NCBI GenBank assembly: GCA_035623075.1
Contig: DASPUC010000027.1
Coordinates: 62,001-126,000, forward strand
Direction: 5' to 3'
Source of the DNA: Nitrospiraceae bacterium
Lineage (GTDB): Bacteria > Nitrospirota > Nitrospiria > Nitrospirales > Nitrospiraceae
Length of the DNA: 64,000 nt
The notes beneath the pieces are model-generated. The model had not been told where the DNA came from, searched no databases, and worked only from the letters and a program-made list of their open reading frames with translations. Made by a program: the position numbers and the translations under genes. The number at the start of each line of letters is the position of its first letter. Within the stretch, counting starts at the first letter, position 1. Below, piece after piece: positions 39,605 to 42,513 of the stretch.

Positions 39605-40546
39605 ATGCTGTTGCATCCGATGGTTGAACTATACTTGACTCACCTCCGCATCGAAGGAGGGCTGTCGGTCAACACGCTGGAGGCCTATCGACGGGACCTG
39701 CTCAAATTTCAAGCCTACGCGCATCGGGCTGGTGTGTCGTTGCCCGCACAGATGACCTCCAACACGGTCATGGAGTTTCTTCGCTCTTTGAGAGACGCTC
39801 GGATGTCGCACACCTCTTCAGCCCGCTGCTTGTCCGCTATCCGCGGCTGGCTCCGGTTTCTCAGGCAGGAGCATGTGATCGATGTAGATCCTGCCGTCGG
39901 ATTGACGTCGAGTCGTCGTGGCCTCAAACTGCCGAAAACCTTGTCTCAGCATGAAGTGACAGCGTTGCTGGATCTACCGACCCAGAACACGCGTGAGGAC
40001 TCTCGCGACCGGGCGATGGTGGAACTGCTCTATGCGACCGGATTGCGGGTGTCGGAACTTGTTTCGGTGGAAGTTGGAAAGATCAATCTCGATGTCGGCT
40101 ATCTTTTCGTCACCGGCAAGGGGTCGAAGGAGCGAGTCGTACCGATGAACGATCACGCGCGAGAGGCAGTGCGCCACTACCTCCACGAGGTGCGTCCACG
40201 ACTGTTGAAGCAACGGACCTCGAGGTTTCTGTTCGTGACGACCCGTGGAACTCCCATGACGAGGCAGGCCTTTTGGAAATTGTTGCGTCGACGCGTGCGA
40301 CGCGCCGGCATCACGAAGACCATTTCACCGCATATGTTGCGACATTCGTTCGCGACGCATTTGCTCGAGGGAGGGGCCGATCTCCGATCTGTCCAAGCCA
40401 TGCTCGGACACGCGACCATCGCCACCACCCAAATCTATACGCACGTCGAGCGGGAACGACTCAAGCACGTGCACGATCGATTTTTCCCGCGCAAACATCG
40501 TCGAGCGGGAATGGGCAAGAGGTCTGCTATCAGAGGTCCACAGTAA
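39605..40546 (+). CDS. xerD: Tyrosine recombinase, XerC/XerD family
   Basis: 313 residues. The N-terminal SAM-like domain is at about 6-90. Catalytic residues visible: Arg148 (ATGLRVSEL), Lys172 or 175 (GKGSKER), His243/Arg246 (HMLRHSF), His269 (LGHAT), Tyr278 (TTQIYTHV). It resolves chromosome dimers at dif. The gene is followed by a promoter and two tRNA genes, the second of which has 3'-end copies. Start ATG 39605 or 39620; neither has a strong ribosome site. Confidence 0.9.
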   Translation: MLLHPMVELYLTHLRIEGGLSVNTLEAYRRDLLKFQAYAHRAGVSLPAQMTSNTVMEFLRSLRDARMSHTSSARCLSAIRGWLRFLRQEHVIDVDPAVGLTSSRRGLKLPKTLSQHEVTALLDLPTQNTREDSRDRAMVELLYATGLRVSELVSVEVGKINLDVGYLFVTGKGSKERVVPMNDHAREAVRHYLHEVRPRLLKQRTSRFLFVTTRGTPMTRQAFWKLLRRRVRRAGITKTISPHMLRHSFATHLLEGGADLRSVQAMLGHATIATTQIYTHVERERLKHVHDRFFPRKHRRAGMGKRSAIRGPQ

Positions 40547-40591: not shown

Positions 40592-40620
40592 TTGACAAGG
40601 GTCGGTGGACTTGGTAGCAT
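40592..40620 (+). promoter_or_regulatory. Promoter of the tRNA-Val/tRNA-Asp unit
   Basis: Perfect TTGACA at 40592-40597, 17-base spacer, TAGCAT at 40615-40620 (4 of 6). The GC-rich CCGCC directly after the -10 resembles the discriminator of stringently controlled stable-RNA promoters. The tRNA-Val gene begins about 20 bases after the expected start. Confidence 0.7.
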
Positions 40621-40643
40621 CCGCCAAGGTTGCTAGGAAAATC

Positions 40644-40719
40644 GGGCGGATAGCTCAGTTGGAAGAGCGCTGCCCTTACAAGGCAGAGGTCACAGGTTCG
40701 ATCCCTGTTCCGCCTACCA
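40644..40719 (+). tRNA. tRNA-Val (anticodon TAC), CCA encoded
   Basis: Cloverleaf fits: acceptor GGGCGGA with TCCGCCT (first pair G-U), D arm GCTCAGTTGGAAGAGC, anticodon arm CTGCC-CTTACAA-GGCAG with TAC, T arm ACAGG-TTCGATC-CCTGT, discriminator A and encoded CCA. Confidence 0.95.
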
Positions 40720-40841
40720 GCCGGATGGTGTTGGTGATTCGGAACAGGCCAGCATTGTAAAGACGGATGAAAATTTCAGACGAGACCACCCGCTAGTTAT
40801 AGTCTTGTCGCTCCGAATTTCCGCTATAGGTAGAGTCACGA

Positions 40842-40920
40842 GGGGCCGTCGTTCAGCCTGGTTTAGGACGCCAGATTGTCAATCTGGAGGTCGCGGGTTC
40901 AAATCCCGTCGGCCCCGCCA
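40842..40920 (+). tRNA. tRNA-Asp (anticodon GTC), CCA encoded
   Basis: Acceptor GGGGCCG with CGGCCCC, anticodon arm CCAGA-TTGTCAA-TCTGG with GTC, T arm GCGGG-TTCAAAT-CCCGT, discriminator G and encoded CCA. The D loop is long. A run of six T follows. The 122 bases between this and tRNA-Val show no strong promoter, so both may be one transcript. Its 3' 25 or so bases plus T-run are repeated downstream. Confidence 0.95.
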
Positions 40921-41290
40921 TTTTTTCTGTCCCCGTGTTCACGTTGCAGGCGTTGAACGCGCGACCGGGGGTTTCGAAGGGGGTATGTCCCCTTCGTGGG
41001 GAGCATACGAGGGGGCTGGCCCCCTCCGTGGAAGCTGGCGAGGCAGGCTTCGGGGCCGAGCCAGCGACGGAGCGCGGTTCAATTCCCGTCGGCCCCGCCA
41101 TTTTTTTCTCAATGAACGTGTTGGGGCCATGAGCCCGCAACATGTCGTACTGAAGGGGTTGTGCCCCCTTTCGTGAGGAACGTACAAGAGGACCGGCCAC
41201 CAGCTGCAGCGGTTAGGGAGGCAGGCTTCAGGGCCGAGCTAACAGTTGGAGGGTGGAACAGCTTCTGTCGGCCTCTCCCTGTTCCTCAAT
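40896..41290 (+). repeat. ~180-bp tandem repeats carrying the tRNA-Asp 3' end
   Basis: GGTTCAA..CCCGTCGGCCCCGCCA plus a T-run at 40896-40926 recurs at 41076-41106 with one mismatch in 31 bases, exactly 180 bases later. A degraded third copy (GTCGGCCTCTCCC) is at 41267, 179 bases on. The spacers are related too: GAAGGGG.. ..CCCCTTTCGTG, GAGGCAGGCTTC, GGGCCGAGC occur in both at the same offset. Spacer one folds into three hairpins: GTATG..CCCC/GGGG..CATAC (40983-41008), GAGGGGG/CCCCCTC (41009-41026), GCTGGC/GCCAGC (41034-41065). Copy two lacks the anticodon arm, so it is no tRNA. It may be a processed RNA, or the scar of repeated integration. No gene is supported at 41107-41353 beyond this decayed unit. 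Confidence 0.88.
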
Positions 41291-41353
41291 GTTTGCTAAA
41301 CTCCCTATGCAACACTACACATTATCCGCTGATGCGGGAAAGGTCGTAGCCGC

Positions 41354-42061
41354 ATGTTTCAAACGAGTACCGTAGAGCTGGTGGGGTCACTCGGTCTGGT
41401 GTCGAAGAGCGTGCTCGTCTTGTTGTTCCTGTTCTCGGTGATCTCCTGGGCCATCATACTGTTCAAGTGGCGTGTGTTTCGCGCGGCCGACCGCGGGGAT
41501 CAGCGCTTCATGGCGCTCTTGGCCAAAACCAAAGATCTCGGCGACCTCTATCGTCAGATCAGAAAGATGGAGGAAAGCCCCTGTGGAAGTCTGTTCGAAG
41601 GAACGGTCGAACGCATGGGAGTCGCAAGCGTCGACGGAAAAGACGGGACCGGTTCCGCACCGATTGATCGGCATCTGATCGAACGGACGGCGGCACATCT
41701 TTCTCATAGCCAACTCTCGCGGTTGGAAGCCTATCTTCCTTTTCTCGCCACCACCGGAAACATCGCGCCGTTTGTCGGCCTGCTGGGGACGGTGCTGGGG
41801 ATCATCGATGCCTTCCGTGAGATCGGTGCGCAAGGGACGGCGAGTATCGCTGCGGTCGCTCCCGGGGTCTCAGAGGCGTTGATCGCCACCGCAGCCGGCT
41901 TGTTCACCGCAATTCCGGCCGTCATCGCGTACAACTACTTCCTCACCAGGATTCGACGAACTGCCGCACGAATGGATACGGTCACCATCGAACTACTGGC
42001 CTGGCTCCCGGCTTCCACCAGCACGAAGGCGAAACCAACTCCGGTGGTGATGCAAGCATGA
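41354..42061 (+). CDS. tolQ: TolQ (MotA/TolQ/ExbB proton-channel protein)
   Basis: 235 residues with three membrane helices. The last two helices carry the conserved TGNIAPFVGLLGTVLGIIDAF and PGVSEALIATAAGLFTAIPAVIAYNYF of the proton channel family. With TolR it uses the proton gradient to drive Tol-Pal, which constricts the outer membrane at division. First gene of the cluster; stop overlaps tolR by ATGA. An ExbB assignment is possible from sequence alone, but tolB and pal downstream settle TolQ. Confidence 0.95.
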   Translation: MFQTSTVELVGSLGLVSKSVLVLLFLFSVISWAIILFKWRVFRAADRGDQRFMALLAKTKDLGDLYRQIRKMEESPCGSLFEGTVERMGVASVDGKDGTGSAPIDRHLIERTAAHLSHSQLSRLEAYLPFLATTGNIAPFVGLLGTVLGIIDAFREIGAQGTASIAAVAPGVSEALIATAAGLFTAIPAVIAYNYFLTRIRRTAARMDTVTIELLAWLPASTSTKAKPTPVVMQA

Positions 42062-42513
42062 CGGCGTTCGAATCCAGACAACGACGATTCTTGGCGGAGA
42101 TCAACGTCATTCCGCTGGTCGACGTCGTACTCGTGCTCCTGGTGATTTTTATGGTCACCGCGCCGATGCTGTACCGCGGTATGGACATCAATTTGCCGAA
42201 ATCTGCGACCAACACGATCAAGCCAGAAATGCGCACCGTCCTCACGATCGAGAAGGATCAACGGCTGTACTTGGACAAGGACCCGGTGGGTGTGGCGCAG
42301 CTGGAGCAGAAACTGAAACTGCTGAAGCTGCAGCATCGGGATGTCTCGCTGTACTTGCGCGCTGATCGTGAGGTGCCCTACGGCATCGTCGTACAAGTGA
42401 TGGACGGAGTAAAAAAGGCCGGCATCGAAAAGATCGGCATGGTGACTGAACAGGTTGGTGCCGAACGTGTCAGCGCTCCCCAGTTGATCCATACACCGTC
42501 TCGAAAGAGTTAG
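42058..42513 (+). CDS. tolR: TolR (ExbD/TolR family)
   Basis: 151 residues. One N-terminal membrane helix with the channel Asp in EINVIPLVDVVLVLLVIFMV, then a periplasmic domain (LTIEKDQRLYLDKDPV, DREVPYGIVVQVMDGVKKAG). Partner of TolQ. Overlaps tolQ by four bases. Confidence 0.95.
   Translation: MTAFESRQRRFLAEINVIPLVDVVLVLLVIFMVTAPMLYRGMDINLPKSATNTIKPEMRTVLTIEKDQRLYLDKDPVGVAQLEQKLKLLKLQHRDVSLYLRADREVPYGIVVQVMDGVKKAGIEKIGMVTEQVGAERVSAPQLIHTPSRKS

Follow-up and report, generated by a model that had tools for sequence, protein, structure and literature searches.

What is the tandem array that lies directly 3' of, and on the same strand as, the tRNA-Asp(GTC) gene in a 64,000-nucleotide (nt) stretch of DNA from a Nitrospiraceae bacterium (assembly GCA_035623075.1, contig DASPUC010000027.1, positions 62,001 to 126,000; this whole stretch is referred to here as the window), and does its likeness to the repeats of the Escherichia coli tyrT operon have any meaning? 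In our assessment, held with moderate confidence, the array belongs to a family of tRNA-linked repeats (TLRs) present in Nitrospirota and comprises two units, of which the second has decayed; such units are probably small nonautonomous insertions whose RNA would be made together with the tRNA.

The repeated part of the array is a 31-nt block that extends from the T-arm through the T-run and starts at positions 40896, 41076, and 41255, with spacings of 180 and then 179 nt. The block at 41076 is identical to the first one in 30 of the 31 positions (97%) and the block at 41255 in 61%, which bears out the preliminary description of this locus, where a recurrence with a single mismatch, a decayed third copy, and related spacers had been reported. 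The self-comparison proposed there gave a best local score of 28.5 on the +180 diagonal, far above the maximum of 15.5 seen in 500 shuffles over all offsets from 100 to 300, and an alignment of the two spacers has 122 identities in 180 positions (score of 52, ∼10 standard deviations [SD] above the shuffled value of −6.4 ± 5.5). Convergence and a general tRNA-borne element had been offered as the two possible explanations; the second one corresponds to a known class, namely, the TLRs. The proposed search of Nitrospirota genomes, made with the spacer, was fruitful as well: it revealed dispersed copies, nearly every strong one of which is located directly behind a tRNA gene, with different tRNAs in different copies.

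Anatomy of the units and their fit to the host tRNA

The first survey, in which 41 genomes were searched with the window spacer, showed that each relative's unit ends in a copy of the end of its own tRNA and not of tRNA-Asp. The cores of these relatives, aligned without any tRNA sequence, were used to build a model, R1, with a length of ∼104 nt; most of the surveyed genomes are draft assemblies, and the E values of the model are rough. The core consists of three hairpins with a total of 28 base pairs, 16 of which show two-sided compensatory changes. It is present in 93 of the 175 genomes of this bacterial family, representing 19 of its 22 genera, and R1 also has matches in other Nitrospirota families. 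For 102 of the 147 distinct core matches, a tRNA gene on the same strand, specific for Asp, Gly, Ala, Thr, Met, or Ser, is found less than 400 nt upstream, compared to a chance expectation of <1% (a rough estimate based on ∼45 tRNA genes in 4 Mb); because the search model contains no tRNA sequence, this linkage counts in favor of the TLR assignment. The remaining matches represent a stand-alone element, second units of arrays, and orphan units, whose guide and copy segments (see below) still identify a tRNA. In the genomes of family f3, all units examined are located behind tRNA genes (Leu, Ser, or Gly), and weak matches in family f17 display the same order of parts behind tRNA-Arg and others. 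The named records that carry the units belong to Nitrospira, including N. moscoviensis; a literature search on Nitrospira repeats returned nothing relevant.

In the 5'-to-3' direction, the order of parts is the tRNA with its CCA, a trailer, a guide, the core, and a copy of the tRNA end. The trailer, counted from the CCA to the guide, ranges from 0 to >100 nt. The guide, a feature additional to those in the preliminary description, is antisense to tRNA positions −33 to −18 from the 3' end, which cover the variable loop, the 5' strand of the T-stem, and the T-loop; in the tRNA-Ser units, it is antisense to positions −24 to −6. The copy corresponds to tRNA positions −25 to −1 in most of the 96 relatives.

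Both the guide and the copy fit the tRNA next to which they are found. The guide scores 14.3 against its own tRNA, 8.3 against other tRNA types, and 5.9 when shuffled, and the respective scores of the copy are 23.2 for its own tRNA and 10.2 for other types. When the partners were swapped within one tRNA type, a procedure that leaves shared descent in place, none of the 5,000 permutations reached the observed fit of either the guide or the copy, which therefore follow even the isoacceptor variants. The exceptions are L014 and L070, where the guide fits the resident tRNA and the copy fits another Thr variant. The calculated duplex energies are −32.1 kcal/mol for the guide with its own tRNA, −23.5 kcal/mol for the guide with its own copy, and −20.7 kcal/mol for the guide with a tRNA for another amino acid; the tRNA is preferred over the copy by more than 1 kcal/mol in 94 of the 96 units. 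One reason for this preference is the extra T-arm nucleotide of the copy, a single-nucleotide insertion that is present in 68 of the 96 units, mostly at positions −25 to −27 or, in tRNA-Ser, at −16/−17.

In the window, R1 recognizes the core of unit 1 and, with a lower score, that of the decayed unit 2 (Table 1). The guide of unit 1 (TTGAACGCGCGACC) is complementary to tRNA-Asp with one mismatch and scores 11.5, compared to 7.4 ± 1.0 for shuffled sequences; taken singly, it is only ∼4 SD above them, so that its weight comes from the family-wide statistics. The copied tRNA end is identical to the original in 24 of 25 positions, including the CCA, and its last 17 nucleotides are an exact match.

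Insertion sites, target duplication, and descent

Occupied and empty versions of the same site were found in genus g6, in which the tRNA-Thr(CGT) gene is followed by a unit in genomes G115, G114, G143, G089, and G086 but not in G078, G126, G098, and G005. At the empty site of G078, the tRNA is followed by the same flank that follows the copied CCA in G115 and G114. Young copies carry trailer sequence for a second time after the copied CCA, with exact matches of 17, 22, and 38 nt in L034, L137, and L037, respectively; the target duplication therefore comprises the tRNA end together with a trailer segment whose length varies. Trailer and post-copy flank are at least 75% similar in 8 of 93 cases, compared to 1.3% expected, and the similarity of own pairs exceeds that of mismatched pairs. 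The duplication is fixed at the T-arm on one side and variable on the other, a pattern that would fit target-primed copying better than the action of a fixed-end recombinase.

On the tree of the cores, the tRNA type changes 33 times, compared to 79 changes after shuffling and a minimum of 10, so the units mostly keep to one tRNA type and jump to another now and then. Among 222 orthologous pairs with the same tRNA type and related upstream DNA, which are not independent of each other, the identity is 97% for the tRNA, 87% for the core, 86% for the copy, 81% for the guide, 53% for the trailer, and 46% for the flank, indicating that guide, core, and copy are maintained either by selection or by steady correction.

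The TLRs of E. coli, which are reportedly the subject of earlier papers by Egan and Landy (1978) and Rudd (1999), offer a second set of such loci. They have been known since 1978 and occur as 1 to 5 units within a tRNA or rRNA operon; strain K-12 carries 22 of them at ten loci, with no known function so far according to a 2021 paper (PMC8144298). The 5S-linked TLRs (RrA, RrB, and RrF) are processed and bind Hfq and CsrA, and their copied 3' end has been proposed to serve RNA processing; a description of the guide or of the target duplication was not found in that paper (PMC8144298). Behind tyrV, the unit that encodes rtT, a 171-nt RNA with its annotated end at the copied CCA, contains an antisense segment with 18 of 22 bases complementary to tRNA-Tyr positions −30 to −9 (score of 14.5, compared to about 7 ± 1 for shuffled sequences), followed by hairpins and an exact 19-nt copy; three such units are arranged in tandem. 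With 12 further K-12 regions scanned, none of 300 shuffles equaled the score of the antisense segment at tyrV, lysV/lysQ, or proK; at argV and lysT, the segment was not significant.

The lysV and lysQ loci have a second copy of the trailer, with its intrinsic terminator, after the copied CCA; at lysV, this trailer is 43 nt long. A lysV-type unit is found, over at least 80% of its length, in 3,208 of 5,426 E. coli genomes, and a simple site, with the tRNA, one trailer, and the same flank, is found in strains 2015C-4136CT1 and B1.H1.39; therefore, the K-12 lysV unit is a 95-nt insert between 61-bp duplicates (18 + 43 nt). An empty site could also result from a subsequent deletion between the repeats; the existence of the duplication, however, requires an insertion. 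Strain CE0011b carries the lysV unit, annotated as RtT. In strain SK1144 (L239:1201-1420), two tRNA-Tyr genes are found without RtT, and a desaturase gene annotated on the opposite strand ends 16 nt past the second one.

Proposed mechanism and rival explanations

As a small insertion, the unit would be expressed through read-through transcription that starts at the tRNA promoter, and the transcript would be cut at the copied CCA, as annotated for rtT. Insertion could begin at the T-arm, with the guide pairing with the tRNA gene or its transcript, and end at a variable point of the trailer, in the manner of target-primed copying. The fit of guide and copy to the tRNA might thereafter be maintained by selection for base pairing. 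Several points weigh against such a mobile TLR. No transposase, integrase, or reverse transcriptase (RT) is encoded in the units, and no partner enzyme was found, RT being the family surveyed. The RT domain (PF00078) is present in 52 of the 175 genomes; it is absent from the window's genome and from several element-rich ones (G000, G004, G015, G013, G002, and G011), which led us to reject RT as the partner. Further, the clustering of the core tree by tRNA type suggests that much of the spread may reflect vertical inheritance accompanied by losses, deletion between direct repeats can also produce precise empty sites, and insertion by itself does not account for a guide that suits each new tRNA.

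A serious, if clearly less probable, competitor is a regulatory RNA or switch of the host that is kept for its service and spreads rarely. Its guide would have two alternative pairing partners, the T-arm of the upstream pre-tRNA and the copied end, and would thus sense or tune tRNA folding and supply, or else the unit would yield a small RNA similar to E. coli RrB. The conservation of guide, core, and copy far above that of the trailer and flank agrees with this view, as do the better fit of the guide to the tRNA than to the copy, the minimum-energy folds of the tRNA with its unit, which often favor guide-tRNA pairs by 1 to 24 kcal/mol, and the processing and protein binding of RrA, RrB, and RrF (PMC8144298). 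However, the presence of the units is patchy, both in the 175 genomes and, for the lysV type, in E. coli; the clean empty sites and duplications show insertion; the lysV and lysQ units are positioned after an intrinsic terminator; and TLRs so far have no known function (PMC8144298).

At tRNA attachment sites, crossover typically takes place at the T-loop, and the 3' end of the tRNA is restored. Copies that begin at or close to the T-loop, as they do in both phyla, could accordingly be the footprint of a tyrosine integrase, with the unit being a mini-element, the tRNA end its attachment core, and the guide an inverted half-site for an integrase supplied in trans. The trailer in G114, which differs from its own post-copy flank, also speaks for this explanation. 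We consider it unlikely: a fixed-end recombinase would not give CCA-to-guide distances from 0 to >100 nt, element ends fixed on both sides were not observed, the trailer of young copies duplicates the chromosomal flank, and no match was found in IMG/VR by exact pattern or in phages and plasmids by BLAST. Replication slippage that duplicated the tRNA end by chance, without any element, would agree with the existence of tandem arrays, such as those in the window and at L219. This explanation is highly improbable and, for the entire family, is refuted by the conservation of the core among genera and tRNA types and by guides that match their respective tRNAs. A trans-splicing or tRNA-repair ribozyme, whose internal guide and 3' exon the guide and copy resemble, is at most a speculative idea: the core, three plain hairpins of ∼104 nt, matches no known ribozyme, and there is no conserved G-U pair at the junction.

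The features of the locus are listed in Table 1. The tRNA-Val gene precedes tRNA-Asp by ∼120 nt. Open reading frames of 123 and 115 amino acids cover the repeat on both strands and are read as chance, since they cross the tRNA gene; the window's matches to Rfam families besides tRNA are all at chance level, with only the tRNAs over the threshold. As judged by eye from the translations, a XerC/XerD-like recombinase frame (39605-40546) lies upstream of the tRNA pair, and TolQ/ExbB-like (41354-42061) and TolR/ExbD-like (42058-42513) frames lie on the 3' side of the array. A second unit with the same anatomy is found in the same genome behind tRNA-Ser(GCT) (L263:851-1110).

Table 1. Features of the tRNA-Asp locus, in window coordinates
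Feature	Position	Strand	Basis
Sigma-70-like promoter match (TTGACA-17-TAGCAT), 5' of the tRNA-Val/tRNA-Asp pair	40592..40620	+	Consensus scan only; 2 found vs 0.3 in shuffles
tRNA-Val (TAC), upstream neighbor	40644..40719	+	ARAGORN, Rfam tRNA
tRNA-Asp (GTC), host gene of the element	40842..40920	+	ARAGORN, Rfam tRNA
tRNA-Asp target of the guide: variable loop, 5' T-stem, T-loop	40889..40902	+	Guide alignment, −32 to −19
Trailer, from tRNA CCA to guide	40921..40952	+	T-run recurs after the copied CCA at 41101
Guide, antisense to tRNA-Asp −32 to −19, one mismatch	40953..40966	+	Score vs shuffles, family-wide statistics
Three-hairpin core, unit 1	40967..41070	+	R1, 113.8 bits, E = 1.9e-19; covariation
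AGCGC junction; extra nucleotide lengthens the copied T-stem by one base	41071..41075	+	Sequence
Copied 3'-terminal 25 nt of tRNA-Asp with CCA, one mismatch	41076..41100	+	Sequence match
Putative decayed guide of unit 2 (TGAGCCCGCAACA)	41130..41142	+	By-eye comparison with the unit 1 guide
Decayed core, unit 2	41143..41248	+	R1, 39.6 bits, E = 8.9e-6
Decayed second copy of the tRNA-Asp 3' end	41255..41285	+	61% identity, in register

Several variants were seen elsewhere. In genome G029, tRNA-Gly(GCC) is followed by three almost identical units in tandem (L219:1570-2210). In G142, the sole tRNA-Gly(CCC) found is split, its 5' part running, intron-like, into guide, core, and copy (L053:1442-1633), and tRNA-Gly(TCC) is intact elsewhere in that genome. 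The stand-alone element, a few hundred base pairs long, has the same core with a hairpin replacing the guide (L080, L084, L091, L092, L100, L105, L107, L109, L126, and others, as well as L038 and L040 in G004). Its ends resemble inverted repeats (TAGCCCGCATTATTCACGA ... TCGTGAATAATGCGGGCTA), similarly to miniature inverted-repeat transposable elements; in the core tree, the stand-alone cores of g10 genomes form one branch, and those of G004 form a second one. Finally, a recurrent hairpin tail, TACC-AAGC-TTCG-CTTG-AGCCGCCGCG...CGCGGCGGATA, follows many tRNA CCAs and copied CCAs (the latter in L010, L015, L022, L036, and L137; after tRNA-Thr in L174) and is either another dispersed repeat or a terminator.

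Comparison with known systems

CRISPR-associated transposons home to tRNA genes in a guide-directed manner. By analogy, they may be likened to the Nitrospirota units in having a guide that matches the neighboring tRNA gene beside the insertion. In contrast to these transposons, the Nitrospirota units encode no proteins, have a long and variable target duplication, and carry their guide antisense on the tRNA-coding transcript. RrA, RrB, and RrF are TLRs like those of Nitrospirota but are linked to 5S rRNA and bind CsrA and Hfq.

The comparison with tyrT/rtT drawn in the preliminary description holds for the plan, where the likeness extends beyond what was noted there, but not for the sequence. 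The rtT RNA of the tyrT operon (RttR; Rfam family RtT, RF00391) has the same order of trailer, antisense piece, hairpins, and copied CCA end, in tandem units. The RtT covariance model, the check suggested at the outset, had no match in the window at the gathering threshold and none in 40600-41400 at E values of up to 10, and the ∼180-nt period to which meaning had been attached is a coincidence, given that the relatives have periods from 146 to 295 nt.

The likeness to the E. coli TLRs is one of organization. Similarly to the Nitrospirota units, E. coli TLRs are located directly 3' of a tRNA (or 5S) gene on the same strand, in one to several tandem units, and have a hairpin core and a 3' end identical to that of the host gene; the antisense segment (tyrV, lysV/lysQ, and proK) and the long target duplication (lysV/lysQ) are also shared. 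The copy, however, usually starts at −25 in Nitrospirota and at −18/−19 in E. coli, and most Nitrospirota copies, unlike those of E. coli, have an extra T-arm nucleotide. The E. coli model R2 matched no Nitrospirota locus among 20 sources, and, conversely, R1 and nhmmer matched no E. coli unit; therefore, the common plan reflects either convergence or a divergence of the cores so great that their relationship is no longer apparent. In one hairpin, a short likeness between lysV and Nitrospirota, GGA-GCCG..CGGC-GACGG, was noticed by eye.

A bolder and rather doubtful proposal is that the Nitrospirota and enterobacterial TLRs are two lineages of one protein-free mode of mobility, in which an RNA or single-stranded cassette would use a T-arm-pairing guide and target-primed copying, the tRNA end being regenerated and the guide refitted. 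What the comparison offers in any case is a second TLR family from a distant phylum, unrelated in sequence but with its parts in the same order, which separates the essential parts (guide, hairpins, copied tRNA end, and long target duplication) from incidental ones. A guide that follows its tRNA is a direct experimental handle, and a natural test bed is available in E. coli, whose strains differ in whether they carry the lysV unit, so that the TLRs, a class of no known function, become testable.
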